Positions 2,921-25,226 of a DNA stretch of 29,246 bases are shown here, piece after piece. Source of the DNA: a virus; the IMG/VR virus record IMGVR_UViG_3300022074_000267, positions 1 to 29,246 of that record, one strand, 5' to 3'. The position numbers and the translations under genes are program-made. The notes beneath the pieces were generated by a model. It did no database searches and had not been told where the DNA came from. It saw only the letters and a program-made list of their open reading frames with translations. The stretch's first letter is position 1; every line of letters begins with the position of its first letter.

Positions 2921-2937
2921 TGTAAAATCTCCTTAAA

Positions 2938-4116: not shown

Positions 4117-4132
4117 ATTTGTTTTTCTCCAA

Positions 4133-4148: not shown

Positions 4149-4171
4149 ATTTTAAAGTACAAAAGAAGGCT

Positions 4172-4207: not shown

Positions 4208-4234
4208 CATCTATTCAGATAGAATTAACTGAAA

Positions 4235-6047: not shown

Positions 6048-9000
6048 TTACATCATGTAGTATACATCACCGTGCTCAATGAAAGTAACAGAAGATCCTG
6101 GGAACAACTTAACTTTACCATCACCTTCGCCATCGATAGTCTTACCTGCAGGAGCAGTGAATTCCATCGCTTCAGTAGAAGCAGCAGCCAAAGAAACTGT
6201 TACTTTGTAGTTTGGTGAAAGAACTGGGAGTACAGCAAGTGAATCCGCACCATTGTTTTGAATGATATAAAGTGGATCATCAGCAGTCAAAGTCAATGAA
6301 GCAGAAGCAACAGCATTAGTGATAAAGCTAACTTTTACTTCGCCATCAATCATTTTAACTTGCTTAGCTTCGAGTTCGTTCTCTTTTGCAGTCGCACGAG
6401 CGATTTCGCTAGTTAAGTTACTAGAAATCGTAGTATCAGCAGCCTCAAAAGCAACTTGAAGAGCATCATCCGCAGCTTCAAATGAAGCAGTTATAGCAAT
6501 CTCACCAGCAGCACGAGCAGCAACTTCGTCTTCAAGATCACCTTCCAACTCAGTCATATCAGCCAAGAAAGAAGCTTCCATCGCAGAGTCAGCAGCTTGG
6601 AATGCAGCAGTTACAACAGCATCAGCAGCAGCCATTTCACCTTGAAGTGTAGACTTCTCAGAAGCCAACTCAGAGCGGATAGCAGCACGATCAGTAGATG
6701 CATCGCCAAAAGATACTACGTTAGCAGCTTCGTGCGCAGACAAAGATGCTTCAACAGCGTCAACTTGACCTTCAAGTTCAGTCTTAGCAGTAGCGATATC
6801 ACCAGCAACAGTAGCAGCGAAGTTTTCATCGTCACCGATTGCAGCAGCCAATTCATTCAATGTATCCAACAATGCAGGTGCAGAATCTACAAGACTTGCA
6901 ACAGCAGCGTCAGTGTGAGCAATAGCTTCACCTTTAGCAGTAGCGATATCAGCAGTCAACTGAGTGTTCATACCGATACGAGCTTGTTCTGCAGCTACGA
7001 AATCAGCATTAGTAGCAGCGATCTCTGCATCAAGAGCAGCAGTGAAAGAATTTTCCAATGAAGTGATTTCAGCATCAGTATAAGCCTTAGCGTCAACTAG
7101 AGCTTGAGCTTCAGCAGCTTGTGCACGAGCAATTTCAGAAACCAAATCTGCAGCGATTGCATCACGACCAGCACCAGCAGAAATGAAGTCAGCGTTTGTA
7201 GCAGCAATTTCTGCATCCAAACCAGCTTGAACACCAGCAACAGCAGCAAGCATAGCAGTATTTTCAGCAGAAACTGCGGCAATACGAGCATCTTCTTCAG
7301 CTTGCAATGCATCAGCCAAAGACTCTTCTGCAGCTTCAGCACGTTGTTGTTCAGCAGAAATAGCGTTAGTGTTTACAAGTTCAGCAGCTTGTGCTCGAGA
7401 AATTTCAGAAGCCAAAGCAGCGTTGTTAGAAACTACATAGTCATCATGCTTACCTTCGATACGAGCTTCTTCGCCTTCACGAACAGCAGTCTCAGCATTA
7501 GCAGCAGCTTCAACAGCAGCTTCCAAAGTAGAGATTTCTGAATCAGTGTGAGCATTTGCAGAAGACAATGTTGAAACATCACCAGCAGCAAATTCGCCAC
7601 GAATAGCAGCTTCTTGTCCTTCAGCACGAGTCTTTTCAGTCAAGATATCTGCAGACAAAGCATCATCAGCATTTGAACGAGAAAGAGCTTCAGCACTTAC
7701 AGCAGCTTCACGAGCAGATTGTTCAGCAGAAACTGCGTTAGTCAATACAAGCTCAGCAGCTTCAGCACGAGTTTTTTCTACAAGTACATCTGCATCAATC
7801 TCAGCTTGCATCTCAGCCTTAAGAGCATCATCAGCAGTAACAAATTCACCACGGATTGCAGCTTCTTGACCAAGAGCGCGATTCTTTTCGGTAAGAATAT
7901 CAGCAGCCAAGCCAGATTCTGCAGTAGAAGCACGAGAAGTCTCTGCAGAGATTGCAGCTGCGTTTGCAGCGATATCAGAAGTGTGAGTACCATCTTGAAC
8001 TTTAAGAGCGTCGATTTCAGCAGTGAAAGCATCTTCCATTGATTGATCTGCAGCAGCAAACTCTGAACGGATCGCAGCGCGATCAGAAGTTGCAGAACCA
8101 AAACGAGTGTTGGTAGAAGCAATTTCAGCATCCAAACCAGATTGAAGGCCTACTTCAGCAGCAAGAGCACGAGTTTCTTCAGCAGCAAGAGCAGCGTCGT
8201 TAGAAGCTACGTATGCATCCAAAGAAGATTGAACACCAGAAACAGCAGCAATACGTGCAGTTTGTTCATCAGAATCAGCTTGCTCCAAAGCAGACTTAGC
8301 AGCATTGAAATCCAAAACGTGAGAAGCAAAAGCAGCATCGTTTTCAGTATCAACAGAGTTGATCAAATCAACGATTTCTTTGAATGAATCAGCATCAGCA
8401 GAAGAAGCATTCAAGATAGCATCGATACGACCCTTCTCAGTTGCAATCTCACCAGAGAGACCTGCTTCAGCAGCAAGTGCACGATCTTCTTCATCTTGCA
8501 ATGCATCAGCCAAAGAACCTTCAGCAGCTTCAGCACGAACGTTTTCTGCAGTGATTGCAGCAGCGTTTGCTTGTTCAGCAGCACGAGCAGTAGCAGCTTC
8601 AGTATTCAAAGAAGATTGAAGACCAGCTTCTGCAGCTTCAGCACGAGTCTTTTCAACAAGTACATCTGCATCGATCTCAGCTTGCATTTCGCCCTTAAGG
8701 GAAGCGTCAGCAGCAGCGAATTCACCACGGATCAAAGTTTCTTGACCTTCAGCACGAGATTGTTCAGCAGCAATATCGCCTTCCAACTCTGCTTCTTTAC
8801 CAGTAGCACGAGTTACTTCGGAAGCCAAGTCTGCAGAGTTTTGATCTACATCACCTTGAAGAGCAGCTTCGGCAGCACGAGCAGTTGTAGCTTCAGAAGA
8901 AATTGCAGCAGCATTAGCTTGTTCTGCAGCGCGAGCAGTTCCAGCTTCAGAAGAAATTGCAGCAGCGTTTGCTTGTTCAGCAGCTTCTGCACGACCTTTT

Positions 9001-9581
9001 TCGGTCAAGATTGCAGCAGCATTATCATCAACTGAAGATTGAAGACCAGCTTCAGCAGCTTGTGCGCGAGAAACCTCAGCACCTAAATCAGCAGAGTTTT
9101 GATCTACGTCACCACGAAGACCTGCTTCTACGCCTTCTGCACGACCTTTTTCGGTCAAGACTGCAGCAGCGTTAGTAGCGATATCAGAATCGTTAGAAGT
9201 GATTTGACCTTGAAGACCAGCTTCAACGCCCAATGCACGAGTTTCTTCGTCAGAAATCAAGTCAGCAAGTTCAGACTTGTCTGCAGCCATTTCAGAACGG
9301 ATAAGTCCACGATCTGAAGTAGCACCAGCAAAACCGGTAGCGGTAAAGTCTACGTGTGCTTGAACGTGACCCATACGAGCCAATTTATTTTCTTCACCAG
9401 CCAAAAGACCAGTTTCGCAAGTCCAAACACCCAAAGGCATTGCAACTTCGTCAGAAAAGTAATCCAATTTTTTCATTACGCCTTGCGGGAACTCAATGTT
9501 CTCAGCAGGCAAAGCAACCATATCAAAACGTTCAACTTGAGCGTCATATATGATTACACCATTATTAAAATTTTTAGCCAT
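6048..9581 (-). CDS. Giant repetitive coiled-coil tail fiber protein
   Basis: The protein has 1177 residues, extraordinarily rich in Ala and Glu. Residues 1-110 are a distinct N-terminal domain (MAKNFNNGVIIYDAQVERFD) that probably attaches to the virion. About 110-1080 is a long series of imperfect repeats of the type EKTRAEAAEAGLQ, AAISSE and DQNSADLASEV, consistent with a trimeric coiled-coil shaft. Fiber-type motifs occur within it: SADADSFKEIVDLINSVDTE near 390 and LLDTLNELAAAIGDDENF near 900, the latter close to the LDTLNELAAALGDD motif of many phage tail fibers. The last 90 residues are a beta tip (TIDGEGDGKVKLF...FIEHGDVYYMM). A good terminator follows. Role: probably a host-binding fiber or its shaft. 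Confidence 0.87.
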   Translation of the reverse strand: MAKNFNNGVIIYDAQVERFDMVALPAENIEFPQGVMKKLDYFSDEVAMPLGVWTCETGLLAGEENKLARMGHVQAHVDFTATGFAGATSDRGLIRSEMAADKSELADLISDEETRALGVEAGLQGQITSNDSDIATNAAAVLTEKGRAEGVEAGLRGDVDQNSADLGAEVSRAQAAEAGLQSSVDDNAAAILTEKGRAEAAEQANAAAISSEAGTARAAEQANAAAISSEATTARAAEAALQGDVDQNSADLASEVTRATGKEAELEGDIAAEQSRAEGQETLIRGEFAAADASLKGEMQAEIDADVLVEKTRAEAAEAGLQSSLNTEAATARAAEQANAAAITAENVRAEAAEGSLADALQDEEDRALAAEAGLSGEIATEKGRIDAILNASSADADSFKEIVDLINSVDTENDAAFASHVLDFNAAKSALEQADSDEQTARIAAVSGVQSSLDAYVASNDAALAAEETRALAAEVGLQSGLDAEIASTNTRFGSATSDRAAIRSEFAAADQSMEDAFTAEIDALKVQDGTHTSDIAANAAAISAETSRASTAESGLAADILTEKNRALGQEAAIRGEFVTADDALKAEMQAEIDADVLVEKTRAEAAELVLTNAVSAEQSAREAAVSAEALSRSNADDALSADILTEKTRAEGQEAAIRGEFAAGDVSTLSSANAHTDSEISTLEAAVEAAANAETAVREGEEARIEGKHDDYVVSNNAALASEISRAQAAELVNTNAISAEQQRAEAAEESLADALQAEEDARIAAVSAENTAMLAAVAGVQAGLDAEIAATNADFISAGAGRDAIAADLVSEIARAQAAEAQALVDAKAYTDAEITSLENSFTAALDAEIAATNADFVAAEQARIGMNTQLTADIATAKGEAIAHTDAAVASLVDSAPALLDTLNELAAAIGDDENFAATVAGDIATAKTELEGQVDAVEASLSAHEAANVVSFGDASTDRAAIRSELASEKSTLQGEMAAADAVVTAAFQAADSAMEASFLADMTELEGDLEDEVAARAAGEIAITASFEAADDALQVAFEAADTTISSNLTSEIARATAKENELEAKQVKMIDGEVKVSFITNAVASASLTLTADDPLYIIQNNGADSLAVLPVLSPNYKVTVSLAAASTEAMEFTAPAGKTIDGEGDGKVKLFPGSSVTFIEHGDVYYMM

Positions 9582-9808: not shown

Positions 9809-12118
9809 TTAGAACATAAAGAAGTTTGACTGCCCATCAGTGTATATACTTATAGATGATCGAGGGGAAACCAAGACAATTTCCATTTTGCCATCTATCA
9901 ATTGATTTTCTCTCGCTCTTATGATTAGTGTGTAGTTTTCTGCAGATCCAATTTCATCTGTTAGAACAAAGATTTGTCCATTCGCTAGAGCAGAGGCATC
10001 TGGTAAAGTAATTACAGAGTGTTCGTTTACTTTAAGGGCGATGAAGTAGTCGTCTGTCTTCATGTTGTAACTGGCTGTTGTCTCGATTCTATTTCTAACT
10101 TCAATACCGGGTTGGTTGATAACCTTTATTATGTTGCCATTCTCGTCGACTGATAGAACTTTTGATGAATGACCGTCCGGTACGTTAGCCAAGTTCAAGC
10201 TAGGAATATAAACCTTTCCGGATGATGGTTCAATAGAAAGGTCTCCACTATCATTTACATGCATATCTGCGTACGTATAATCTGATATTCCAAATACTGG
10301 TACTGTGTTTGTAAGTCTTAGTTGGGCTTCGCCATCTTTGATCTCGACCTTTCTAGTAGCATTATTGGTTCCAACAGCCAATGTTCCTTGTAGTTTAGTT
10401 GTGTTCGCAACATCCAGATAGGACAAAGTGCCCAAGGCATAAATATTAGTTTGGTTTCCAGTTGTGAGTCGCCCAGCAATAACATCCGCATTGACCCAGT
10501 AAGTATTAACGGTTGTTGCGTCTACAGTGGTGGTGCTTACATTGTCATTGGATATCGTTGTATCACCATTCGCAATGTTGCTTGATGTAATATTGGTAAA
10601 GTGACCCGTGTGTGACGATACTGAAACGGACGAAGATAGTTGACCTGCATTGTTCAAAACTATATCGCCATTAGAGCCCACTATAAGCTCTCCAAGCACT
10701 TTTGTATTGTTGCCTATGTCTATACTTGAATTGTTTGTAGAAATGCTTGTGGAGGCATCTGTGACGCTTATAGATAGGCTCTCAGATCCATTTCCAAGCT
10801 CTAGTTGGTTTGATGTAGATGTTACGCCAAATTTGGCTGTGGAGTATGATCCAACACCAACTGTTGATGCAGAGACAAAAAGAATGTTATTGATCTCAAG
10901 ATCATTGGGAGTAGACATTGTCTTAGCGTTTACGATGATTGAGTCCGAGGATTCGTCACCAAAGGTCAGAGTGTCTGCAGATACTGCGAAGTCTGTGACT
11001 CGTGCTGATAAAGTGCCCGAGACGATAAGGTTGCCCGTTATCCTTGCATCTCCGGATACATCCAATGCATGCTCGGGAGAAACATTGTTGATCCCAACTC
11101 GTTGCCCTGTCGGAGTAATTGAGAACATTCCTTCTGTATTGGTCTCCAAGTCGGTGTGATGCTTCAGTGGATTGAATAAGAATCCGCCATTAATAATTTG
11201 GTTCGCTCCAAGAGATGATAGTCTTAGTTGTGCACCAGTGTTGTCGAAGACTTCCATCTTCTTTGCTGGCTGATTCGTTCCGACTCCAACTCCTGCAACC
11301 TTGGCCACGAATGCATTTGTGTCGAGTTCTATGCCTTGGCTTATAACGGCGAAGTCCATACCAACAGCGTTGGAAGAATTGACCGAGTTAAAACTAGTAG
11401 AGGATATTGTGGCTCCAGAGTTTGTGTTCGAGATGTTGACTTCGGACTGAGCAGTTGGCGTTCCCAAGATTACATTTCCGTTTGCGTCAACGATCCTACC
11501 TGTGAGAACAATATCTCCAAAGGTTGAGTTCGAAACAATTGCTGTAGATGAAGAAAGAGCTGAGGAGGTTAGTTCATTGGCGATCATCACATCAGATTCT
11601 AGTTCATCAAACAGACCGATCGTACCACTGAATTGAGATGCGTCAATCTCAATAGCATTTATATCACCAGACACATTTAGTATCGCGCCATCAAAGGTGA
11701 GGTTCTCTTCTGCGTTAACTGTGTCTCCAGTAACTGATGTAACGATTCGATTGTCTGCAAAGTTTGTCGCATAGTTGATAGGTACACCATCGAGATCTCC
11801 ACCCCAACCATAATACTTTACAGCGGTAACGTTGCCTGTGATGTCTAGAGATCCTGTGAACTGGTGTAGATCGTCTTCTGTGTCTCCAAATATTGATGAT
11901 CCCGAAACCTCAAAGTGAAAAACTGTTTGGGTTTGATTTTGAATCTCGAAGTTGTGAGCAATGATATTTCCGGAAATAAGAAGCGCGTTGTCCTCGTCAG
12001 ACCAGACCAAGTTTGGATCGTGATCCAACTTAGTTGAGTCACCCGATAGTTGAATCGAGCCTTTAGGACCCGACGCTTGGGATCCTACAACATATGCCCA
12101 TCCAAATTCTTTTGCCAT
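9809..12118 (-). CDS. Tail fiber or spike-like structural protein
   Basis: The protein has 769 residues, beta-rich and repetitive with many Ser, Thr, Asn and Val. The N-terminus FGWAYVVGSQASGPKGSIQL reads like others I recall in marine phage fibers. Repeating short strands follow (FTGSLDITGNVTAVKYYGWG, LDVSGDARITGNLIVSGTLS, GELIVGSNGDIVLNNAG), typical of trimeric beta-helical fibers. Near the end, SKVLSVDENGNI is a fiber motif shared with two genes further on. The last 90 residues (VITLPDASALANGQIFVL...QLIDGKMEIVL...YTDGQSNFFMF) resemble the tip of the giant fiber. No chaperone or lyase domain is recognised. Confidence 0.82.
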   Translation of the reverse strand: MAKEFGWAYVVGSQASGPKGSIQLSGDSTKLDHDPNLVWSDEDNALLISGNIIAHNFEIQNQTQTVFHFEVSGSSIFGDTEDDLHQFTGSLDITGNVTAVKYYGWGGDLDGVPINYATNFADNRIVTSVTGDTVNAEENLTFDGAILNVSGDINAIEIDASQFSGTIGLFDELESDVMIANELTSSALSSSTAIVSNSTFGDIVLTGRIVDANGNVILGTPTAQSEVNISNTNSGATISSTSFNSVNSSNAVGMDFAVISQGIELDTNAFVAKVAGVGVGTNQPAKKMEVFDNTGAQLRLSSLGANQIINGGFLFNPLKHHTDLETNTEGMFSITPTGQRVGINNVSPEHALDVSGDARITGNLIVSGTLSARVTDFAVSADTLTFGDESSDSIIVNAKTMSTPNDLEINNILFVSASTVGVGSYSTAKFGVTSTSNQLELGNGSESLSISVTDASTSISTNNSSIDIGNNTKVLGELIVGSNGDIVLNNAGQLSSSVSVSSHTGHFTNITSSNIANGDTTISNDNVSTTTVDATTVNTYWVNADVIAGRLTTGNQTNIYALGTLSYLDVANTTKLQGTLAVGTNNATRKVEIKDGEAQLRLTNTVPVFGISDYTYADMHVNDSGDLSIEPSSGKVYIPSLNLANVPDGHSSKVLSVDENGNIIKVINQPGIEVRNRIETTASYNMKTDDYFIALKVNEHSVITLPDASALANGQIFVLTDEIGSAENYTLIIRARENQLIDGKMEIVLVSPRSSISIYTDGQSNFFMF

Positions 12119-13152
12119 TACTCATCGATTCCCGTTCCAGTTAAATCATACATTCTTTCGATCGGTACATTGGTCAAGGAAGCGTATACATCAAAGTCTT
12201 GATTGGCTCCATCGGCAAATAAAAACATTGACTTAGTTTTTACGTTTAGCTCAAGTTCTTCGCCCGCAGGGATTGTAATTGAATGAGAGTTTACAGCAGT
12301 ATCTAGCTGTCTTCCGTTTACGAAAACACCAGTTCCTGTACCGACTTTTGTCAAGTTATTGCTTCCAATACGGTCGTTAATTGTCGATGCCGTATCGGCA
12401 GTTGTAAAATAATTTCTATAAGCATTGTCTTCAAATGCCCACCAAGAAGTTAGATTGCCTGCTTGTGTGTGGTCTCTTGGGTCAAAATAAGCTCCTGCAG
12501 AGTAAAGTTCAGCAACCTCTGCTGCTGTAAAGGCCGTGTTGAATAGGTACATGTCGTCATAAGTATCATCATAGTTTGCGGTATCAGCACCAATTGTTAG
12601 TCCCGTGAAAGATCCAGCACCGGTCCCATTGCCGGCATTGGACACTGCTAACTCTCCATTTACATAAACCTTGTTGTCTGTATCATTTATCACCATCGTT
12701 ATTTGGGCCCACTCGTTAAGTATAATAAAACCATTAGAGCTGTTGAGGCTGAAGCCATCAACAAAAAACTTTAAAGCTCCAGTGCCAGTCCCTTGCAATC
12801 TTGTGTTTGCCGCACCTCCGTCGAGTTCAATAACCCTAGCTAGAAGTGCTGAGGATGTTGGTTTTATCCAAAAAGATATTGTAAAAGCAGCCGAAGACGC
12901 AAACGTTCCCTCAAATCGATCGGCAGGTGTCGCTCCGGGCATATCAAAGCCTCTCCGAGCGTTGTCGGCAAAGCCAATCTTAAGAGCCCCAGAGCCAGTG
13001 TGATTTTTGACCTTAATCTTCTTCGTCACATTTGGGAACTTTATATATTGAGTACTTCCATCCGCCAAACCTGTTACGTTTTTGAGCCATGGTCTGCCTG
13101 ATACTTGAAACGACCCCATGTTGTTGAGGCCGGTTGTATAATTAAAACTCAT
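12118..13152 (-). CDS. Appendage protein with inserted LamG/concanavalin-like domain
   Basis: The protein has 344 residues. Residues 1-62 (YTTGLNNMGSFQVSGRPWL...KFPNVTKKIKVKN) and 288-344 (HSITIPAGEELELNV...YASLTNVPIERMYDL) match the whole of the preceding 141-residue protein. Between them, about 65-280, lies a LamG-type jelly roll: AAFTISFWIKPTS, LNEWAQITMVIND, KVYVNGELA, LTIGADTANYDDTYDDMYLFN and TAAEVAELYSAG. Such domains bind sugars or other surface ligands, so it may contribute to host recognition. Start and stop both overlap neighbours (TAATG), placing it in one translational unit with the fiber gene downstream. Confidence 0.85.
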   Translation of the reverse strand: MSFNYTTGLNNMGSFQVSGRPWLKNVTGLADGSTQYIKFPNVTKKIKVKNHTGSGALKIGFADNARRGFDMPGATPADRFEGTFASSAAFTISFWIKPTSSALLARVIELDGGAANTRLQGTGTGALKFFVDGFSLNSSNGFIILNEWAQITMVINDTDNKVYVNGELAVSNAGNGTGAGSFTGLTIGADTANYDDTYDDMYLFNTAFTAAEVAELYSAGAYFDPRDHTQAGNLTSWWAFEDNAYRNYFTTADTASTINDRIGSNNLTKVGTGTGVFVNGRQLDTAVNSHSITIPAGEELELNVKTKSMFLFADGANQDFDVYASLTNVPIERMYDLTGTGIDE

Positions 13153-13599: not shown

Positions 13600-13607
13600 T
13601 AAATAGT
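13600..13607 (-). promoter_or_regulatory. Candidate late promoter, ACTATTTA box
   Basis: Minus-strand AACTATTTAGTCC overlaps the last codon of the bS21-like gene and lies 23 bases upstream of the 141-residue appendage gene start. It would begin the fiber gene unit. Inferred from recurrence. Confidence 0.5.
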
Positions 13608-13801
13608 TATTGCTTCTTCTTCTTGAGGTTCGCTCTCCATTTTTTACGAGCGAGTCGTTTCTTCTCAGAGTCAGAAGTGAAGTGCTTCTTGTCTCTCATC
13701 TCTTGAATGATTCCAAGTTTTTTACATTTTTTGGTAAATCTTTTAATAAACCGTTCCATGCTCTCGCCTTTGCGAGGCTTCATCTTGTAATTGGTAGCCA
13801 T
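13607..13801 (-). CDS. bS21-like ribosomal protein homolog
   Basis: This is a very basic protein of 64 residues. The body ERFIKRFTKKCKKLGIIQEM followed by RDKKHFTSDSEKKRLARKK aligns by eye with bacterial bS21 (pattern RRFKRxCxKxGVLxExRxRxFYxKPSxxRKRxKxxA). bS21 sits near the 30S platform by the anti-Shine-Dalgarno end and helps mRNA binding. Phage bS21 homologs have been reported in aquatic phages and may join host ribosomes and bias initiation. AAGGG lies upstream of the start, which overlaps the preceding stop. A generic small basic DNA- or RNA-binding protein is the alternative. The presence among late head genes is odd for a translation factor. Confidence 0.75.
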   Translation of the reverse strand: MATNYKMKPRKGESMERFIKRFTKKCKKLGIIQEMRDKKHFTSDSEKKRLARKKWRANLKKKKQ

Positions 13802-14226
13802 TATTTTCCCTTTGCTAATTTTGACCAGATAGCCGAACTTGATCCGAAAGCTGAAATATCAACTCCGGGATCGTTTGGAGATACACCCTCTAAAGCTTTT
13901 GAGCCACTAGGTCCTGATGAGCGACCGCTCTCTCTGTTTGATAATGCAGTTGTACCTTCAAACAAATCAACGCCATTGTATGAGTCTCGACCGATTGAGT
14001 CAAGCATCTTTCGTCGGCGTTCTTTTCTTTTACGTTCTTCTAGTTCGTGATCAATTTGTGGTTTTTGATATTGTTGAGGTTGTCGGGTCTCGACGATACG
14101 TTGTCCGCCCGTACCTTTAACAACTTCGGAAATGATTCCAGAGAGAACCCCTTCTTCGAATATAACTTCTTTGATGCACTCTTTGATGAGAGGCTTAAGG
14201 GTTTTCTTTAATTGTTCTTTGTTCAT
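13801..14226 (-). CDS. Small protein following prohead protease, tag-like N-terminus
   Basis: The protein has 141 residues. The N-terminal helix KKTLKPLIKECIKEVIFEEG resembles the class B tags and contains I-F-E at 22-24, a gp21-type site. The middle is basic (ELEERKRKERRRKMLDSIGRD) and the C-terminal half is Gly/Ser-rich and probably flexible. I recall similar genes right after gp21 in marine T4-like phages, with no known role. The start is immediately after the protease stop (TAAATG) and the stop overlaps the bS21-like start (TAATG). It may be a prohead core or internal protein; this is inference from context. Confidence 0.75.
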   Translation of the reverse strand: MNKEQLKKTLKPLIKECIKEVIFEEGVLSGIISEVVKGTGGQRIVETRQPQQYQKPQIDHELEERKRKERRRKMLDSIGRDSYNGVDLFEGTTALSNRESGRSSGPSGSKALEGVSPNDPGVDISAFGSSSAIWSKLAKGK

Positions 14227-14850
14227 TTAGTCTCCAAGAATCTTCTTAAATAGATTGTCAATATTATTTTCTTTTTGTTCTCGCAATCTTGTCGAGAACT
14301 TGAATGCTTTCTTCGATCCTTCTCCGGGATATACATAAGCATCGGGAGTTGATGGCTCTGATACGATATCAAAGCAAATAAGTTGGAAGTCATCTTCAAC
14401 AATGGTTTCGCCCATTGACTCTTTGACTGATCCAAGTCCTCGAGATGAGATTCCAAGTTTCACACCAGCGTTAATCAAATCCTTAAGGATACGACCAGAA
14501 GGAGTATCAAGGACTTTGATTTTGCCCATAACGTCTTTGCCTTCCCACCAGCACTTAGTGACCATGTGAGATACGTTCTTAAGGTTGATGACTGAATCAT
14601 CTGGGTGATCAAGTTCGCCGCATGCACGATTGTCGTTGACGATAGTCATGTAATTGTTCATTTCTCTTTTAAGAACTTTCTCTGGATATTTACGTCCGTT
14701 GCCGTTTTTCTTGTCGGCAGTTTGAATACGACCGGTGAGGTACATTGCACCCTCTTCTTTGATCTCTCGCTTTTCACGTTCGGTCAATAGATCTTGACAC
14801 ATGCCGTCTGGGCATAGTGCATGATATTCTCTTAGTAGTTTTTTAGACAT
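14227..14850 (-). CDS. Prohead maturation protease, T4 gp21-like
   Basis: This protease sits in the prohead core, activates itself and cleaves scaffold, capsid and internal proteins after (L/I)-x-E, clearing the head for DNA. The protein has 207 residues (T4 gp21: 212). Expected motifs are present: NGRKYPEKVL, CGELDHP with the catalytic His82, and LGISSRGLGS with the nucleophile Ser135 or Ser136, followed by ICFDIVSEPSTPDA. The start overlaps the preceding stop (TAATG). The gene sits between cargo-like tagged genes and a small partner, whereas in T4 it is directly followed by the scaffold and capsid genes, which here lie 10 kb downstream. Confidence 0.94.
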   Translation of the reverse strand: MSKKLLREYHALCPDGMCQDLLTEREKREIKEEGAMYLTGRIQTADKKNGNGRKYPEKVLKREMNNYMTIVNDNRACGELDHPDDSVINLKNVSHMVTKCWWEGKDVMGKIKVLDTPSGRILKDLINAGVKLGISSRGLGSVKESMGETIVEDDFQLICFDIVSEPSTPDAYVYPGEGSKKAFKFSTRLREQKENNIDNLFKKILGD

Positions 14851-15347
14851 TAGCTTGGGACCTCTTCAACGACTCCTTTGATCATAAACGGTTCAATAGG
14901 TTGAAAGTTTTCTTGAGGAATCTTGTTTGAGTTAAATGGTTTTCCGCCTTCCGGAATAGCAATAGTAACATGTGGAAATTTTACTTTCTTGTGGATTGGT
15001 GCTGGTGGCTCAACCATTGCAGCCATAGCTTTATCAGACATTCCAATTGATACAACTTTTAATTGTATTTCTCCGCCGACTGGATAATCAGCACTGAGAT
15101 CATGCTTCCCTTTCGGGTGAACGATTGGACTAAACGGTACAATAGTCATATGGTGAGGCAAAGGAGCCCCAGCTTTTGTATTAAAAACGAATCCTTCAGG
15201 GACTCCCATTTTCTCTGCTGCCTGCTTAAGGGCTTGTACGCTTGGTTCATCAAGAACAACACCAGAATATGCTACTCCACCTTCGTTAAGAACAGAATTC
15301 AGCTCTTCTTTAATAATTTGTTTTAGTTGTTCATTTGTAATTTTCAT
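14850..15347 (-). CDS. 2H phosphoesterase-like protein with class B tag (possible anti-CBASS Acb1-type or RNA-end enzyme)
   Basis: The protein has 165 residues with GGAGAA upstream. The tag ends KQIIKEELNSVLNE, with L-N-E at 20-22 fitting the gp21 cleavage rule. The body has two HxT motifs, HHMTIVPF (His66, Thr68) and FPHVTIAI (His126, Thr128), 60 residues apart. This is the defining active-site pattern of the 2H phosphoesterase superfamily, which cuts 2',3'-cyclic or 2'-5'/3'-5' phosphodiester bonds. YSGVVLDEPS and GGKPFNSNKI flank it. T4 gp57B (Acb1) is a 2H enzyme that destroys CBASS cyclic nucleotide signals, so a similar defence-blocking role is possible. An RNA 2',3'-cyclic phosphodiesterase is the main alternative. 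It lies just upstream of the prohead protease with a TAATG overlap. Confidence 0.7.
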   Translation of the reverse strand: MKITNEQLKQIIKEELNSVLNEGGVAYSGVVLDEPSVQALKQAAEKMGVPEGFVFNTKAGAPLPHHMTIVPFSPIVHPKGKHDLSADYPVGGEIQLKVVSIGMSDKAMAAMVEPPAPIHKKVKFPHVTIAIPEGGKPFNSNKIPQENFQPIEPFMIKGVVEEVPS

Positions 15348-15772: not shown

Positions 15773-16471
15773 TTAAAGTCCGCGATATCTTACGTTGAAA
15801 TCTTCTTTAGATCTGTTACTTAACATGTTTTCAAAGGCACCTTTCATCCTTTTCAACTTCTTGACAAAAGATTCGTGATTAGACTTCATGCTTTCATATT
15901 GTGCTTTTGAGTCTGATAGGTTTTTCTTTTTAAAGCTATGGTGAGTTGAAGGAAATTTGAACGGCATATCGCAATCATCGTCCGGATCTTGCGTTTGGGA
16001 TATGTAATCAAACTCATCATTTCCGTCTTTTGTTTTTCTCTTCTCATACTCGCCTGATTTTTCAATCTTGTCCCATGCACGTTCCGCCTTTTGTTTTGTG
16101 CCGGTGACGTGATCTGAGGTCAAACCTTTGTCTTCTTTGCCCAACACATAAAAAGCGCAATCCATTAATAGTTTTTGAAAGCCTTGACCTTCATAGTCCT
16201 TATGTGTGTGAACTGTATTGATTTGAAATGTCTCGGGGATACACGGTTCGGAAGTGGCTGTTTTAGTATTTTCAAATGAGATTGCACCAACTATAACGGT
16301 GTCCAAGAACAACCTGCTGGTCTGTCGCGATTCATCGGAAGCTGGTTTGTAAATAACTATTCTTTGATAGTTGGCCCCATCACCTTTATGGTAAAGACAT
16401 AGCCCTTCTGAGTGTGCGCTTTCGTTCAAAAGAAACTTTCGAAAGTTTTTGTGTAGTTTGTAAGATTTCAT
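15773..16471 (-). CDS. GNAT-like acetyltransferase family protein with diverged tag, paralog 3
   Basis: The protein has 232 residues from 16471. The frame is open 14 codons further, but MKSYKLHKNFRKFLLNE mirrors the relatives, with L-N-E at 15-17 exactly where the other tags have their cleavage signature. The domain shows VGAISFENT, EPCIPETFQIN, the acetyl-CoA loop-like YEGQGFQKLL at 93-102, and the signature GLTSDHVTGT...RAWDKIEKS...YEKRKTKDG...FDY, PDDDCD, HHSF. The C-terminal ~60 residues are basic and helical. It follows paralog 2 with one base between stop and start. Function in acetyl transfer is inferred from the motif; packaging from the tag. Confidence 0.77.
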   Translation of the reverse strand: MKSYKLHKNFRKFLLNESAHSEGLCLYHKGDGANYQRIVIYKPASDESRQTSRLFLDTVIVGAISFENTKTATSEPCIPETFQINTVHTHKDYEGQGFQKLLMDCAFYVLGKEDKGLTSDHVTGTKQKAERAWDKIEKSGEYEKRKTKDGNDEFDYISQTQDPDDDCDMPFKFPSTHHSFKKKNLSDSKAQYESMKSNHESFVKKLKRMKGAFENMLSNRSKEDFNVRYRGL

Positions 16472-16472
16472 A

Positions 16473-17186
16473 TCAATAACTCGCCATATCGTATTCATCG
16501 CTAAAAAGGTCATTTGATTGACTCTTAAGATTTTTTAAGAATCTTTGTACTGCTGAAGGGTCGCCAATGCTATCTAAATAGTCCATATGATTAGCTTCAA
16601 GTTTCATGAGTACATCGTGAGTATTTCCGGTATCTTTCTTGATGAAAGAATGATCTGTTGCATTTGAGTCAGGATCAAAAATATCCAAACTGCAATCATC
16701 ATCTAGATCATCGGGGGTGTCGTTGTAATAATCAAACTTTTCGTTACCGGCTTTTGTTTTTTGCTTCTCGTAGTTTGGATCCGATTCTATCTTAGACCAT
16801 CTCTTTCTAGCACCACTCTTGGACCCGGTCTGTCGGTCTGATGTTAGTCCATGTCCCATAGATTGTGAGATGAAAAAAGCTAGATCATACAAAAGAGGTC
16901 CAAGTCCGATTCCGGCGAAGTCAGAGTCTCTATATGATGTTCCGACTTGCAATGTTTTAGGTATACAAGGATCTTCGGTCTCAATGCACTCTATACCTCC
17001 GATAACTCTAGCAAGTTTTCTACCACGAGGCTTTTCATCTATAATATAAAGAATTATTTTAAACTCTGGAGAGTTTCTAGAATAGAAAAACATGTTGATT
17101 GGTTTTCCTTGTATTTCGGTCACGGATGCTCGAGATTCATTGATGAACTTTCGCCATCCTTCCATTATAAGTTTGTGATTGTTCAT
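16473..17186 (-). CDS. GNAT-like acetyltransferase family protein with class A tag, paralog 2
   Basis: The protein has 237 residues. The tag MNNHKLIMEGWRKFINE ends in I-N-E at 15-17, a match to the T4 gp21 cleavage rule. The domain then follows almost at once: ARVIGGIEC, PCIPKTLQVGTS, the acetyl-CoA loop-like AGIGLGPLLY at 91-100, and the family signature GLTSDRQTGS...RWSKIESD...YEKQKTKAG...FDY, DDLDDDC and DHSF. It is a compact version of paralog 1 without the coiled-coil insert. The start overlaps the upstream stop (ATGA). The acetyltransferase call rests on the loop motif and domain order; the catalytic residue cannot be assigned by eye. Head packaging is inferred. Confidence 0.78.
   Translation of the reverse strand: MNNHKLIMEGWRKFINESRASVTEIQGKPINMFFYSRNSPEFKIILYIIDEKPRGRKLARVIGGIECIETEDPCIPKTLQVGTSYRDSDFAGIGLGPLLYDLAFFISQSMGHGLTSDRQTGSKSGARKRWSKIESDPNYEKQKTKAGNEKFDYYNDTPDDLDDDCSLDIFDPDSNATDHSFIKKDTGNTHDVLMKLEANHMDYLDSIGDPSAVQRFLKNLKSQSNDLFSDEYDMASY
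17158..17186 (-). repeat. Tag-coding repeat, copy 3
   Basis: The first 29 bases of GNAT-like paralog 2 differ from copy 2 at one position (Arg to Lys codon). They encode MNNHKLIME. Confidence 0.85.
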
Positions 17187-18211
17187 GTGCGCGTCCTATT
17201 CGCATAGCTTTTTCCAAATACTCGGAACGCTTTATCGTGAAGTTCTGATGCCCTATATGATCTACCATTAGTTTGAAAATACTCGTCTGCAAGTGTGAGA
17301 TCTTTGTATACCTCAACAGACTTGTCATTGACTCCAAAGCTATGAGATGTGACCGCACCTCTATCTGTAAAATCTTCGCAATCATCTTGCCTGTCATCTG
17401 GTGTTCGATTACCAGTGTAATCAAACTCATCACTACCGCTAGGAGTAGTCCTCTTGTAGAACTCTGGATCTGAACGGATAGCGAGCCACCTCTTTTCTGC
17501 GTCAATGCTCGTTCCAGACGTATGATCTGATGATATCCCACCGTCTCTAAAATTAAGTTTTGCATAAGCTGCGGCTAGTCGATACAATATCGACCCAAAG
17601 CCTTGACGTTGAAACTTTCCAGCAACGGCTGCGAATTTTACCTGAAGTGTGTTTGGAATACAGGGCCCAAACATAGTCGCTATGGATATCATCCCTATAA
17701 CCATCGGAAGTCCATCACTATCAATGACTTCTGTGTGATATAGGACTAGAGTCATAGAATCATCCATGCTTATACTCGCCAGAGCTAGTTTCGAATCTGC
17801 AGAAGGCTTGCCCCTTTGTTTTTCGATAGCAGCTCTTCGAGCTTCCCTTTCTTTACGTTCAGCCTCTTCTTTTTGTTTCTTAATCTCTTCTACTTTTGAA
17901 TTTAAATATTTAAACTTCTTCCAACTATAAAATTCACCAGTCGAACTCATCATGTTTGGTCTTACCAAAAACTCTTCGCCAAGTCTATGTTTATCAATGA
18001 TTTGAGCCAATTCATCTAAACTAGTAGTTTTTAGCTTCTTGTATCTATCGCTGCCTGTGAAGTATGGTACTTTATAATAGAAGTAGTCATATTTTTGAGT
18101 AAACTTATCATAGTTACGGTTTGGCGTTAAGTTTGAAGGGTTCGAACCACCTCTTGTTTGTGCTCGAAAGAAATCTCTCCATCCTTCCATTATAAGTCTG
18201 TGATTGTTCAT
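17183..18211 (-). CDS. GNAT-like acetyltransferase family protein with class A tag, paralog 1
   Basis: The protein has 342 residues. The tag MNNHRLIMEGWRDFF is followed by RAQ rather than the (L/I)-x-E found at residue 17 in its relatives, so the distal cleavage site is lost; I-M-E at 7-9 remains. Residues 23-100 are of unknown type, 105-135 is a charged coiled coil (EEAERKEREARRAAIE), and 160-300 is the shared domain. In it, PCIPNTLQV, the acetyl-CoA loop-like QRQGFG at 201-206 and the family signature SSDHTSGTS...RWLAI...DEFDY...DDC can be seen. GNAT enzymes transfer acetyl groups from acetyl-CoA to amines; the substrate cannot be guessed. The gene overlaps the previous stop (ATGA). Packaging into the head is inferred from the tag. 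Confidence 0.75.
   Translation of the reverse strand: MNNHRLIMEGWRDFFRAQTRGGSNPSNLTPNRNYDKFTQKYDYFYYKVPYFTGSDRYKKLKTTSLDELAQIIDKHRLGEEFLVRPNMMSSTGEFYSWKKFKYLNSKVEEIKKQKEEAERKEREARRAAIEKQRGKPSADSKLALASISMDDSMTLVLYHTEVIDSDGLPMVIGMISIATMFGPCIPNTLQVKFAAVAGKFQRQGFGSILYRLAAAYAKLNFRDGGISSDHTSGTSIDAEKRWLAIRSDPEFYKRTTPSGSDEFDYTGNRTPDDRQDDCEDFTDRGAVTSHSFGVNDKSVEVYKDLTLADEYFQTNGRSYRASELHDKAFRVFGKSYANRTRT
18183..18211 (-). repeat. Tag-coding repeat, copy 2
   Basis: The first 29 bases of GNAT-like paralog 1 differ from copy 1 by one base and from copy 3 by one base. They encode MNNHRLIME. Confidence 0.85.
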
Positions 18212-19413
18212 AGACGTCGTCCCGGGTTTAGCAAGTTTATTGAAGGTCTCGAAATCCCTCCAAAACGACGGGCGGCATAATCTTTGATAATTGCATCTAA
18301 TTGATAAATTGTATCAAATAATTGCTTCTCGTACTTCTCGCCTCTAGCTTTTCTTCTAAGGTAGTTCATTTTAGTATCAACTTGGTTGATAAAATTATTG
18401 GTATTCTCGTTTGATCTCCATTTTTTTCGATCTTCTTTTGACATAGAAAACCATTTTTTCTTGAATCGATAATCGTTCTTAAGTTGTTGTTTTAGCCTGG
18501 ATGCCGTTATAGATTTTGCTGTTCTAACAAATCCTACAGCATAAGCATGCTGTTCTATTTCTTGAGAGTAGTACGTTATTATCTTGCTAGGCACTGTTTC
18601 TTGTGCGTCTTTTCCTTTTTGGCTGTCTATTACATACTGCATTGCTTTGAGCCATTTTTCCCATCTTTTGAGAACTCTTTCTTTACGCTCTTTGGTGTCG
18701 TCTCTTTGGAAGGCTATGTCCATTATAAGGCTAGCTAATAGCTCAAAGGGGTCTTTAGATTTGTCTGAAAGCTTCCCTCCTATTGCGACAAACGACATGT
18801 TTAAAACGTCTTGCATAGGCTCTCCGCGCAATCCCTGAGCTATGTGCTCAACTTCGTGTTGAGTTACTCCCTGTAATACGTGCTTAAAGTCATACATCCA
18901 TGAAAAATTATCTTTTGTATTCCATGGCTCAATAAAGCCACTTACTTCTATTTTTATAGTCAACTCTGTTCCATCTGTGCTCATTGATCCGCCTGTAGAT
19001 CCTATATAAAACCTAGAGGATCGTCTATTTGCTTGGGTGACTTCTAGTTTAAAACTTTTTAATTTCTTAAACAAGGTTGACCTAGATTTAAAGATTTTAA
19101 AGTACCTTTTTGTACTTGAAGATTTATTAATATACTTGTTCATGTGCCTTGTAAACCACATATATTCAGGCCCAGCAAGCTTTATAAAATCATCATATCC
19201 GGGCATTGTTTTTTTAATCTCATGATATGCTTCTTTATTTGGCGGATATGGTTGACTCGCAGCGTTTACAACTCTTTTATCTTCCATCATTTCTCTTATG
19301 ATGTTGGTAAAGTATTGAAGAATGCCTCCGGTCAAGATGCCTGACTCTTGATTGCCGGTATCTTCGCTAAGGAACTGCCTCCAGCCTTCCATTATAAGTC
19401 TGTGATTATTCAT
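18208..19413 (-). CDS. Putative zinc metallopeptidase with class A N-terminal tag (possible internal head protein)
   Basis: The protein has 401 residues from 19413. This start is preferred over a longer frame because GGGAGA lies upstream and because the N-terminus MNNHRLIMEGWRQFLSE matches two following genes. Residues 15-17 (L-S-E) fit the (L/I)-x-E cleavage rule of T4 gp21. VTQHEVEHIAQGL carries a zincin HExxH motif at 186-190, and QEIEQHAYA near 284-292 could give the third zinc-ligand Glu, as in other HExxH peptidases. The remainder is basic and helical. T4 packages and injects tagged proteins such as Alt, so a packaged peptidase acting in the infected cell is a reasonable hypothesis. Substrate unknown; peptidase activity is inferred from the motif. 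Confidence 0.78.
   Translation of the reverse strand: MNNHRLIMEGWRQFLSEDTGNQESGILTGGILQYFTNIIREMMEDKRVVNAASQPYPPNKEAYHEIKKTMPGYDDFIKLAGPEYMWFTRHMNKYINKSSSTKRYFKIFKSRSTLFKKLKSFKLEVTQANRRSSRFYIGSTGGSMSTDGTELTIKIEVSGFIEPWNTKDNFSWMYDFKHVLQGVTQHEVEHIAQGLRGEPMQDVLNMSFVAIGGKLSDKSKDPFELLASLIMDIAFQRDDTKERKERVLKRWEKWLKAMQYVIDSQKGKDAQETVPSKIITYYSQEIEQHAYAVGFVRTAKSITASRLKQQLKNDYRFKKKWFSMSKEDRKKWRSNENTNNFINQVDTKMNYLRRKARGEKYEKQLFDTIYQLDAIIKDYAARRFGGISRPSINLLNPGRRL
19385..19413 (-). repeat. Tag-coding repeat, copy 1
   Basis: The first 29 bases of the metallopeptidase-like gene differ from copy 2 (18183-18211) at one position. They encode MNNHRLIME. The downstream coding sequences are unrelated in protein, so the identity is limited to the tag. 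Confidence 0.85.
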
Positions 19414-20032
19414 AGGTGTATCTCCCATACATATATGGTGCGAATAAGTTGTGTTGTCTGATTGAACCCTTCTCTTCTTCGTGAGGTACTTCTCCAAGTT
19501 CTGTGGAGAACTCTCCGTCTGGTGAAAGTAAATGGTCATCTTGCATATCATCGTATCCTGTGCGACCAGACATCATTGGCTCTTCTGATTCCATCCACTC
19601 AGAAATCTTCATAAGTGTAATTTCGACAGTCTTCTTTCCTTCTTGTAACTTGCCCTCTAGAGACCCATAGATATTACCACCTTGGATAGAATCAATCTCG
19701 ATTAAGCCGTTTCTTCTTAAGTACTCAAGTAAACGGGCTTCTGCTCCATATACCAAATCAGATAAGGTTTCTTTTGCAAATGCAACGATCTTCTTGTCTC
19801 CTTGTTTGATAACGATGTCGATATCTTTATGATCCATAATCATCAAGTCGCCGTTGATGGCTGATCTGAGTTTTAGCTTTGCTTCGATTCTATCTTTCTC
19901 GACAACTTCTATCTTTACTCCACCATCATCAGGGACCTCTCCAGAATCTGCTTTGACGATCTTAACTTTGATTGTAGATCCTTCTGTCTCTTCGACTTCT
20001 TCTTCACCAGTTATTGTAACATTAATCGGCAT
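19406..20032 (-). CDS. Unknown acidic protein in head gene cluster
   Basis: The protein has 208 residues. The N-terminal half is beta-rich and acidic (MPINVTITGEEEVEETEGS, VKIVKADSGEV, VKIEVVEKDRIEAKLKLRS). The middle, VYGAEARLLEYLRRNGLIEI, looks helical. The C-terminal 50 residues are acidic and probably disordered, ending in FAPYMYGRYTYE. No domain is recognised. The start at 20032 has AGGTAAAGAGAA upstream and overlaps the previous gene. The stop at 19406 overlaps the metallopeptidase-like gene. Its place between portal and tagged cargo-like genes suggests a head or core protein, without direct evidence. Confidence 0.75.
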   Translation of the reverse strand: MPINVTITGEEEVEETEGSTIKVKIVKADSGEVPDDGGVKIEVVEKDRIEAKLKLRSAINGDLMIMDHKDIDIVIKQGDKKIVAFAKETLSDLVYGAEARLLEYLRRNGLIEIDSIQGGNIYGSLEGKLQEGKKTVEITLMKISEWMESEEPMMSGRTGYDDMQDDHLLSPDGEFSTELGEVPHEEEKGSIRQHNLFAPYMYGRYTYE

Positions 20033-20837
20033 TTCTCTTTACCTCCGCTAAAAGATCTTGAATGTAGAATACTTCTTCCACAATCTTTGAGTTTATAGGT
20101 GTTCTTGCATAACTATCCAGCTTTGCTCTAACTTTTTTAAAATTTTCGTTCAATGGTGTTTCTGATCCTTCTACGATGTGTGAACTAACGGCTTCTTTAA
20201 GGCGACCAATCTCATCATTTAGAAAGGACTTGAGTCCCAAACCGTTGTCTGAGAACGATACGATGAAGTTACTAAGCAGATCTTTTTGCTCTCTCAACAA
20301 TGAGTGCTCGTATGTTTCATTAAATCTCTTCACAAACATTTTAAACTCTAGAGAGTCAACTGGCTTCATTTCTGTCTGGTTTTCATCTAATCTGGTAAGA
20401 AAACTTACCACTTTGTCCTCGAGCATAATTCTTTTCTTTGCTCCAAGGTTTGAGTTTTGGAAATACAGGCCGATTGTTGCAAGGTCTTTGTAGTTGGGTA
20501 CAAAGTTCGAAAACGTGTTGTTTCCAAGTGCCTTGTTGATCTTGTTGATCAAAGCTGTCTGTTCATTGAATACCATCTTACGATCAATTTCATTAAAGTC
20601 TTTTTTGGTCTCGACCATAAGTCGGCGAGAGAAGTCTTTATTGAGCTCTTTGCTCTCAAGCAGAGATTTATACAAATCAAGCTCTTTACCAAGAGCCTTT
20701 CCTTTTGAGAAAAACTCACGCAAAAGACCCTTGACTTTTGTTTGTTTTTGTTTGTCTTCTTTTATAATTGCTTTTGTTAATTCACGAATCAGACATTCGT
20801 AAAGAAAAGCGGTATTTCTTTTCTTATTGTGTTTCAT
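20022..20837 (-). CDS. Unknown helical protein following portal
   Basis: The protein has 271 residues, starting inside the end of the portal gene (14-base overlap). It is rich in Lys, Glu and Leu and predicted mostly helical. The N-terminus NKKRNTAFLYECLIRELTKAI and C-terminal KIVEEVFYIQDLLAEVK are typical of a soluble helical bundle. I recall comparable proteins in this position, right after the portal, in marine T4-like phages, with no known function. In T4 this place holds the small prohead core proteins gp67 and gp68, so an assembly role is possible from context only. The stop overlaps the next start by 11 bases. Confidence 0.8.
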   Translation of the reverse strand: MKHNKKRNTAFLYECLIRELTKAIIKEDKQKQTKVKGLLREFFSKGKALGKELDLYKSLLESKELNKDFSRRLMVETKKDFNEIDRKMVFNEQTALINKINKALGNNTFSNFVPNYKDLATIGLYFQNSNLGAKKRIMLEDKVVSFLTRLDENQTEMKPVDSLEFKMFVKRFNETYEHSLLREQKDLLSNFIVSFSDNGLGLKSFLNDEIGRLKEAVSSHIVEGSETPLNENFKKVRAKLDSYARTPINSKIVEEVFYIQDLLAEVKRNAD

Positions 20838-22764
20838 CTGTATCTTCCTTTTTATTTAATGATTCTAGCAGGTTCTTAATGTCTGCGTCAATGTTAAATA
20901 GTTTCTCTTCTTCTTTCGAATCGCCCTCGTATATGCCTCGAGCTAATGAGTCTAGTCCTCCAAAACCAACTTTACCCGGAAAGGTTGTTCTTGGTGTTGA
21001 TCCTCGGACCTCTCCGCTAAATGCTTGGTTTTTCATTTGCTTTGAGAATCCACCTTTACGGTATGAAATCTTGTGCTTCTTGTATGGTCCTCGACGTTTC
21101 GAGTCATCATCACGTTTCGCAGGTGGTTCAGCCAAGAGATCTCCATCATCGGCATCATCTCCTCCGGCAGACGCATCAGGCGCATCTCCTCCAGCATCAT
21201 CTCCACCAAGGTCCAAATCACCACCTAGATCGCCTCCTAAGTCTCCGCCTAGGTCTCCACCTCCACCAAGATCTCCGAGGCCTCCACCAGCGTCTCCGCC
21301 GCCTTCCTCAGGAGGTTGTGCAGCGGCTTCAAGAGCAGTCATGAACTTCTTGTCGGAGAACATCTCTCTTTGCATTCTGAGGTATTCATCTTGAGACAAG
21401 CCAAGCAAGTTCTCAGATACCCAACGTCGAGAGAAGTATCCTTCAGTCGCAGCACCAGCGATATCGAACTTTGTCTTCCAGTGCTCAAGCTCTTGCATTT
21501 CAGCAATCTTAGATGGATTGTTGAGAGACAGTTTGAAATTAAGAAGGTCGTCTCCACGATACCCGAGAGTATAGAGATGTACGATTCCAATCTTTTCTAA
21601 TTCAGAGATTAACACACGTTGGAGTCTTTGGATAGTTCTAGCGAATCGGATGTCCTTTTGTGCGAGAGTTGTCTTGTCTTCAGTAGACCCTTCCCCCATT
21701 GACAAGTATGATTGTGGAACTTTCAATGCTGAGAATAATTTGTCTCGGAGATATTTCACATCTTCGATCTGTGCTGTGAATTGCCCTCCTGGAAGGCTGG
21801 TAATGTCCGTTGAGGACTGTCCGCCTCTAATTGGTACAAAGTAATCCTCTTCAATCGAAAGCGGGTTGTAACGCAAATCTACGCGTCCTGTGGTAGGATC
21901 TACAACTTGGTGACGCTTCATTTGAGTCATGACTTTTTGCATATATTGCTCAACATCCTGTGGTGCGATACCTCCAACGTCAATCTTAAACAGACGGCGC
22001 TCTGGTGACCTTGTAATACGATAGGCCATCATTGCGTCTTCGAGCAGCGTAAGTTGTCTCCAGATGCGTCTGGAGGGCTCTAAAACGGATGTTCCATAAG
22101 GAGCATGCTTGTCGTGTCCGAGAATTCTAAAGTGAGCCATTTGCCAATTCTCTAATGTAAGCCCAGCGTTGTTCCATTGGAACTGGACGTAATTTGGATT
22201 TGTTGGATCTTCTCCTTCAAGTCTCTCGACTTCTTGCGGAGGCAAGCCAATACAGTTTTGTAGACCCTTCTCTTCGTCAAGGTCCAAGTATAAAAACATG
22301 TCTCCGTATTTACACATCGTTCTTGCCCAGCCAAAAAGGTTGTGCTCTACATTCATGGTGTTGTAGTAGAGAGAATGAAGGAGATACTTGATCTCATCAT
22401 TGGGGCATTTGACGTGAAGCATTGGAGTCAATGCTGAGTGAGTCGTCATCTCGTCTGCATAGATGTCGAGAGAAGATGCGATCTCTGGTGTGAATTCCAT
22501 TTGGTCGAAGTCGACATAACGCTCTGAACGGTTTCTGTTTGAAATCATGTTCAAAGCCATGACGTTCATTGGGTTGTATTCTGACTTCTTGAATTGTTGT
22601 CCGGAAGCTGATCTAAAGCGCTTCGCATAAATATCAAGATGGCGTCGTCGTAGTTGTCGACCAGACTGTGTTCGTCGTTGGGTCATAGGCCCCGAGAACA
22701 TTCTTGTTAAAGCTTTAAATAAATCATTTTGATTATTATTCGGGTTTCTATCGTTACGAGCCAT
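20824..22764 (-). CDS. Portal protein, T4 gp20-like, with Asp/Gly-rich C-terminal region
   Basis: The portal forms the dodecameric ring at the head vertex, nucleates prohead assembly and is the docking site for the terminase. The first ~480 residues read like a T4-type portal: EIASSLDIYADE, NLFGWARTMCKYGDMFLYLD, APYGTSVLEPSRRIWRQLTLLEDAMMAYRI, PERRLFKIDVG, and LFSALKVPQSYLSMGEG. At 646 residues it is about 120 longer than T4 gp20 (524). The extra part is a low-complexity stretch near 485-533 of repeated GGDLGGDL units, then a basic C-terminal segment (KRRGPYKKHK). The Asp/Gly stretch shares a nearly identical peptide with the scaffold protein. AAGGA lies upstream of the start. The stop overlaps the next gene by 14 bases. 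Confidence 0.95.
   Translation of the reverse strand: MARNDRNPNNNQNDLFKALTRMFSGPMTQRRTQSGRQLRRRHLDIYAKRFRSASGQQFKKSEYNPMNVMALNMISNRNRSERYVDFDQMEFTPEIASSLDIYADEMTTHSALTPMLHVKCPNDEIKYLLHSLYYNTMNVEHNLFGWARTMCKYGDMFLYLDLDEEKGLQNCIGLPPQEVERLEGEDPTNPNYVQFQWNNAGLTLENWQMAHFRILGHDKHAPYGTSVLEPSRRIWRQLTLLEDAMMAYRITRSPERRLFKIDVGGIAPQDVEQYMQKVMTQMKRHQVVDPTTGRVDLRYNPLSIEEDYFVPIRGGQSSTDITSLPGGQFTAQIEDVKYLRDKLFSALKVPQSYLSMGEGSTEDKTTLAQKDIRFARTIQRLQRVLISELEKIGIVHLYTLGYRGDDLLNFKLSLNNPSKIAEMQELEHWKTKFDIAGAATEGYFSRRWVSENLLGLSQDEYLRMQREMFSDKKFMTALEAAAQPPEEGGGDAGGGLGDLGGGGDLGGDLGGDLGGDLDLGGDDAGGDAPDASAGGDDADDGDLLAEPPAKRDDDSKRRGPYKKHKISYRKGGFSKQMKNQAFSGEVRGSTPRTTFPGKVGFGGLDSLARGIYEGDSKEEEKLFNIDADIKNLLESLNKKEDTDETQ
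21185..21237 (-). repeat. Dispersed repeat, copy in portal gene
   Basis: These 53 bases match 46 of 53 positions in the scaffold gene at 3584-3636 without gaps. All differences but one are silent, and both copies encode DLGGDLDLGGDDAGGD. The copies lie about 17.5 kb apart. Confidence 0.8.
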
Positions 22765-24920: not shown

Positions 24921-25226
24921 TTATCTCCCTTGTAAGATGTCCTGAATAAAGTTGATCAATGCTTCTTTCGGAGCAATTGTGGAATCATAATTATCATACG
25001 GATCTTCTTCAGCAATCTCTTCTTTAAGTTGTTCAATTTTCATTTGAAGCTCTTCGTCGCTGTAGCTACTAAGGCGACTAAGCATTCCTTCGTCTCGAGC
25101 ATCTTCGTAATCACTTATGGACCACAGCTCTTGTGGAATTTGTCCTTGAAAACGATCTGACTCATTCATAATAGCTTCAAGTTCTTCTTTAATAATTCTT
25201 TTTAATGTTTGTTTATTGAGTTTCAT
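24921..25226 (-). CDS. Small acidic protein with class B N-terminal tag (possible internal head protein)
   Basis: The protein has 101 residues from the start at 25226, which overlaps the preceding stop (ATGA) and has GGAG ten bases upstream. The N-terminus contains KRIIKEELEAIMNE ending at residue 22. It is a basic-then-acidic amphipathic helix very like the first 22 residues of the 2H-phosphoesterase-like protein at 14850-15347. The rest is acidic (many Asp/Glu, for example KIEQLKEEIAEEDPYD) with no recognisable domain. The M-N-E at the tag end is close to, but not exactly, the (L/I)-x-E site of T4 gp21. A capsid-targeting role is a hypothesis; otherwise this is a protein of unknown function next to the packaging genes. 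Confidence 0.7.
   Translation of the reverse strand: MKLNKQTLKRIIKEELEAIMNESDRFQGQIPQELWSISDYEDARDEGMLSRLSSYSDEELQMKIEQLKEEIAEEDPYDNYDSTIAPKEALINFIQDILQGR

Follow-up and report, generated by a model that had tools for sequence, protein, structure and literature searches.

Four consecutive genes in the head module of a T4-like phage begin with closely similar amino acids, which raises the question of what a shared N-terminus does on proteins that are not all related. We examined the locus within a virus record of 29,246 bases (hereafter, the window), in which a T4-like head module is encoded on the minus strand in the order terminase, portal, two uncharacterised genes, the four tagged genes, a small untagged gene, a 2H-phosphoesterase-like gene, a gp21-type protease and ribosomal protein S21; a scaffold-like gene and the major capsid protein lie further along, past S21. 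Because the T4 gene order is 20-67-68-21-22-23, the tagged block, which is flanked by gp20 and gp21 in the window, fills the slot of genes 67 and 68. T4 internal proteins and Alt use N-terminal capsid-targeting sequences (CTS), and an earlier note on this DNA had read the tag as a signal of this type, cleaved by gp21. Its description of the block was borne out: the four tagged genes are consecutive, three of them start with MNNH[RK]LIMEGWR and the fourth with MKSYKLHKNFRKF, residues 15–17 read [LI]-x-E in three of the four (LSE in gene 1, INE in gene 3 and LNE in gene 4, with no such motif at these residues in gene 2), and a gp21-like protease lies nearby. The features are listed in the Table. 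Among the other products of the window, the 1,177-aa protein is probably a fibre or coiled-coil structural protein, and the two Laminin_G_3 proteins possibly serve in host binding or decoration. The rpsU gene is similarly placed in the isolate Microcystis phage Mel-JY01.

Table. Features of the window and, in the last line, one tagged gene from another contig (L023).
Feature	Coordinates	Strand	Remarks
Major capsid protein (gp23-like)	1073–2920	−	ARELLRE59/S60 aligns with the T4 gp23 cleavage column
Laminin_G_3 (concanavalin-like lectin) protein	4235–5446	−	4.6e-13
1,177-aa protein	6048–9581	−	Repeated AEQANAAAIS/ETARA-like segments; no Pfam match
Laminin_G_3 (concanavalin-like lectin) protein	12118–13152	−	8.9e-15
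Ribosomal protein bS21	13607–13801	−	PF01165, 1.9e-10; soon after gp21
141-aa protein adjoining gp21	13801–14226	−	Tag C-like start LIKECIKEVIFEE, from sequence reading only
gp21-type prohead protease	14227–14850	−	Peptidase_S77, 2.6e-32; phrog_207, 5e-60
2H-phosphoesterase-like protein	14850–15347	−	Two H-x-T motifs; second tag class, MKITNEQLKQIIKEELNSVLNE
Gene 4, GNAT homologue	15773–16471	−	Start MKSYKLHKNFRKFLLNES
Gene 4 variant tag	16421–16471	−	MKSYKLHKNFRKFLLNE
Gene 3, 237-aa GNAT acetyltransferase	16473–17186	−	Start MNNHKLIMEGWRKFINES; model pLDDT 88, PDB matches GNATs
Gene 3 tag A	17136–17186	−	MNNHKLIMEGWRKFINE; modelled helix 3–17, low confidence
Gene 2, 342-aa GNAT-type acetyltransferase	17183–18211	−	Start MNNHRLIMEGWRDFFRAQ; tag MNNHRLIMEGWRDFF; extra N-terminal region
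Gene 1, 401 aa	18208–19413	−	Start MNNHRLIMEGWRQFLSED; tag, then HExEH-containing domain (putative zincin)
Gene 1 tag A	19363–19413	−	MNNHRLIMEGWRQFLSE; predicted gp21 cut after E17
Portal protein (gp20-like)	20824–22764	−	Upstream border of cargo block
Small protein with tag C	24921–25226	−	MKLNKQTLKRIIKEELEAIMNE
S-adenosylmethionine lyase family protein (PF23780) with tag A	L023, 1544–2167	−	MKLIMEGWRQFINES

Within the block, ATGA overlaps connect gene 1 to gene 2 and gene 2 to gene 3. The ATG of gene 4 is at 16471, and a longer ORF starting at 16513 overlaps gene 3; starts like its variant tag are found in four relatives (L040, L381, L374 and L339). The DNA pattern ATGGARGGNTGGMG occurred three times in the window, with none expected from 100 shuffles. 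A second in-frame ATG (in MGDTPM, MEDTHM and MDDTHM) is present about five codons upstream of the tag ATG, both in the window (19413–19431) and in the relatives L047, L053 and L083; its recurrence may reflect a Shine-Dalgarno stretch (ggagat) copied along with the tag as a cassette.

Genes 2–4 are mutual homologues, and therefore a tag common to them proves little by itself. Gene 1 is unrelated to the other three, and we scanned IMG/VR with exact DNA patterns for MEGWRxF, MENWRxF and MKxxMExWR. The scans returned 239 non-redundant ORFs, which were grouped by the sequence after the tag into 100 families unlinked by BLAST at 1e-3; because remote homologues were perhaps split, 100 is an upper figure for independent families. 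The N-terminal tag of these mutually unrelated families, tag A, has the consensus M-K-x-[LI]-[ML]-E-[NG]-W-[RK]-x-[FY]-[LIV]-x-E and a length of about 14–22 residues, which agrees with a T4-type CTS, a 10–19-residue N-terminal propeptide ending in L/I-x-E. Its carriers are uncultured, mostly marine T4-related phages, with up to about eight tag A genes per genome. In seven longer records and the window (295,000 residues), 28 of 29 matches to the core were N-terminal. The relative entropy was mostly 3–6 bits per column in the core and at background beyond W+6, and conservation of the tag ends at the E of [LIVM]xE. Because the tag also stands on the HExxH protein, which is unrelated, and elsewhere on about 100 families with no relation to each other, neither chance nor simple gene duplication accounts for the shared start.

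The shared start could instead be a conserved nucleotide sequence, such as a translation start, a regulatory element or a recombination hotspot, rather than a protein signal. The tags of genes 1 and 2, whose bodies are unrelated, are very similar at the DNA level too, a likeness that suggests recent copying. Across the families, however, the codons of the tag vary synonymously (AAC 41, AAT 41; six Arg codons) while the residues are constant, which indicates that the constraint acts on the protein. This variation rules out a constraint at the nucleotide level, and we regard a DNA element as an exceedingly improbable explanation.

The near-consensus DNA pattern of the tag was found in at least 120 stretches of viral contigs and only once in 257 Gb of bacterial and archaeal genomes, where it again begins a tagged GNAT, and a cellular origin of the tag was consequently rejected. 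This GNAT (L384, 1287–1892) lies within the 2.8-Mb ‘chromosome’ of a WOR-3 MAG, after an 808-aa ORF (1889–4315) starting MKSDFTNDWRKFINRH; the locus probably represents phage DNA that either resides in a bacterial genome or was binned together with one. A tblastn search of 50,697 phage records with the tag peptides gave no match, and hence no cultured phage with tag A, in a search whose low sensitivity for short queries makes this result uninformative; it also missed the isolate Flavobacterium phage immuto, which has tag C-like starts (see below). We found no prior description of the tags in a collection of open-licence papers searched by motif string and by topic.

If the tag is a targeting propeptide of the T4 kind, a cleavage site should stand at its end. 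[LIVM]xE begins at W+4 in 64 of the 100 families, compared with 0–8% at other offsets. Of the remaining 36 families, 23 have the motif within W+3 to W+14, compared with 12–28% in control windows (binomial p 8e-6, using the highest control rate), and 13 have no [LIVM]xE near the tag. The scan patterns stopped short of the motif, and the site was therefore not selected by the search. The T4 internal proteins IPII and IPIII start MKTYQEFIAE, and mutagenesis of the T4 targeting signal assigned targeting to residues 4 and 7 and processing to residues 8 and 10, gp21 cleaving after L/I-x-E (reviewed in PMC9026906). The W0-x-x-F3-L4-x-E6 of tag A has the spacing of the T4 Y4-x-x-F7-I8-x-E10, as expected of a CTS. 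Moreover, the capsid proteins of the tagged phages carry L-x-E, mostly LRE/[AS] (the slash marking the cut), at the column aligned with the T4 gp23 cut; the L/I-x-E specificity of the protease in these phages is putative.

The genomic position of the tag points in the same direction. Similarity to gp21 was the sole criterion for collecting 80 loci, and in these 35 of the 36 tag A ORFs lay no more than 4 kb upstream of gp21, with none downstream (Fisher p 7e-19). The earlier note had held that a tag in phages lacking a gp21-like protease would speak against its reading; this was not seen, and each of the 15 tagged contigs with a length of 130 kb or more, the set covered by this count, encodes one gp21-type protease. 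The tagged contigs without gp21 are shorter and may be fragments. In the window itself, the S77 prohead protease that belongs to a T4-type CTS is encoded in the same module. Many genomes carry tagged genes a long way from gp21; other lineages place them elsewhere, as T4 does its internal protein genes. In the cultured cyanophages Syn1 and S-BM3 and in Vibrio phage F86, gp20 and gp21 are separated by one or two short genes, and the expanded cargo block was not found in these three. The many tagged genes that do not adjoin gp21, together with the ability of amphipathic helices to bind membranes, might suggest that the tag acts in the infected cell, directing proteins to a membrane, a phage compartment or a host factor, and is unconnected with the head. 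Conservation that ends at a gp21-type site, which shifts yet persists, as well as the T4 signal spacing and the clustering directly upstream of gp21, argue against this explanation, and we consider it improbable.

The earlier note had placed the tag on the four genes of the window. It was found there, and the system proved to be wider, with many tagged genes far from gp21 and a second tag class. This class, tag C (MK[IL]T(x)3LKQIIKEELxx[VI][LM]xE), begins many unrelated proteins and tends to end in hydrophobic-x-E. Four body families carry both classes: GNAT, 2H phosphoesterase, P-loop kinase and one unknown family. In the clearest tag-swapped pairs, homology begins 1–10 residues past the E on both sides, as in MKLIMENWRGYLAE/AMKTVADLPDD (L384) and MKLTEAILKKLINEVLQE/GMKTIADLPED (L368). 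With the swap junction just after the E, the natural border between tag and body falls at the predicted cut, and natural swapping of tags would be consistent with a propeptide that by itself can steer foreign proteins into the head. Several tag C-like starts occur in the isolate Flavobacterium phage immuto, a cultured test case; its 5'-deoxyribonucleotidase (L279, 9857–10456) has a different N-terminal extension, which ends in LLLEE ahead of the domain.

Recurrence, cleavage site, swap junction, T4 spacing and gp21 linkage together lend strong comparative support to the claim that the tag is a head-targeting sequence cut by gp21; gene 2, which has no site at the corresponding residues, departs from it. 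We judge it highly probable that the shared N-terminus is a generalised capsid-targeting propeptide of the T4 kind, which would be cut by the gp21-type protease and whose cargo would be injected with the DNA. The targeting-and-cleavage part of this reading draws on several independent comparative tests; binding to the core, cleavage, presence in the virion, injection, and function and target in the host are inferred from the T4 precedent.

The claim that the bodies are enzyme-like held for the acetyltransferases, and the peptidase proposed for gene 1 is a motif-level guess. A model of gene 3 built from 34 aligned relatives has GNATs as its top PDB matches (best E 1e-4), with the tag as a low-confidence helix that ends at the predicted cut, ahead of the confident body. 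Genes 2–4 were below the curated Pfam cut-off (best PF00583, Acetyltransf_1, for gene 2 at 18.3 bits versus 20.7, E 0.003), and their assignment to the GNAT fold consequently rests on the modelled fold for gene 3 and on homology for genes 2 and 4. The HExEH of gene 1 is conserved in three sequences, gene 1 and two distant relatives. This protein had no Pfam match above the cut-off and no NCBIfam family, its structure model (pLDDT 33) was unusable, and the viral scan returned no relatives, the two weak ones coming from the collected loci. In the 2H family, H-x-T stands at two aligned places in six members (HHMT, PH[VI]T), in agreement with the two H-x-[ST] motifs that mark 2H phosphoesterases, and the Pfam match of the window copy is sub-threshold.

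In the wider collection, the tag-bearing families include GNATs, protein-kinase-like proteins, zeta-toxin/AAA-type P-loop proteins, 2H phosphoesterases and a LysM protein. Tag A cargo also includes a SAM lyase (PF23780, 2.7e-11) and a 5'-deoxyribonucleotidase (phrog_2643, 2e-24). LYH-type strings in several other tagged families suggest ADP-ribosyltransferases, for which the libraries gave no support. For many tagged bodies, no enzyme domain could be recognised. Such bodies, and the fact that T4 gp67 and gp68, which occupy the same slot, are cleaved core proteins (PMC9026906), would fit a tag that acts as a docking helix, bringing structural or assembly factors to the prohead core, where they are cleaved and kept or discarded without becoming host effectors. 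Several of the bodies, however, can be recognised as enzymes (kinase, SAM lyase, nucleotidase, GNAT and 2H), and they vary from phage to phage, unlike conserved core proteins; we regard this alternative as unlikely.

In the mechanism that we propose for the injected-cargo propeptide, the tag would be a short amphipathic helix that is translated together with many different, unrelated cargo proteins and binds the prohead core. At head maturation, the gp21-type protease would cut after [LIV]-x-E, so that the tag is lost and the enzyme lies free amid the packaged DNA; it would then enter the host with the genome and act ahead of phage gene expression. The predicted cargo of the window is three acetyltransferases, the HExxH protein and, with the second tag class, the 2H phosphoesterase. 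The precedents of T4 Alt and IPI make it probable that the cargo alters host proteins or inhibits defences on entry. T3-type SAM lyases are counter-restriction enzymes, and a SAM lyase as cargo fits such a role. We somewhat favour the broader view that uncultured T4-like phages assemble a variable set of injected enzymes (acetyltransferases, kinases, SAM lyase, nucleotidases, 2H phosphoesterases and possibly ART-like proteins) by means of two or more interchangeable head-loading tags. If this is true, a short motif would flag virion-borne proteins of these phages from sequence alone, and a set of uncharacterised phage genes would become testable candidates for first-minute effectors and counter-defence enzymes. 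The tags are also candidate signals for loading proteins into phage heads.

The closest known system is that of T4, in which IPI, IPII, IPIII and Alt share with tag A an N-terminal, short signal on unrelated bodies, the pattern aromatic-x-x-F-[IL]-x-E and an S77 protease. The T4 protein gp57B (L228, 10953–11411) starts MMEFKDF, which resembles the IPI start MKTFKEF. Compared with the T4 internal proteins, tag A is longer, with a near-invariant ME[NG]W[RK], stands on about 100 body families that include recognisable enzymes, has a second, interchangeable class beside it and occurs on up to about eight genes per genome; the window lineage also differs from T4 in having its cargo block between gp20 and gp21. 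T4 gp67 and gp68 come from this same slot, whereas the bodies in the window are mostly acetyltransferases. In phiKZ-like jumbo phages, many head proteins are likewise trimmed after Glu (prohead protease motif S/A-x-E) and some are ejected (PMC9026906); the motif and the protease branch are different, as the tagged contigs encode the T4-type family phrog_207. Polyvalent proteins (PMC5512222) are phage proteins proposed for host conflict and form multidomain chains, whereas the tagged proteins are mostly shorter and have a short tag as their common feature. If the proposed reading is true, the few internal proteins of T4 would represent one small instance of a loading system that is general and modular.
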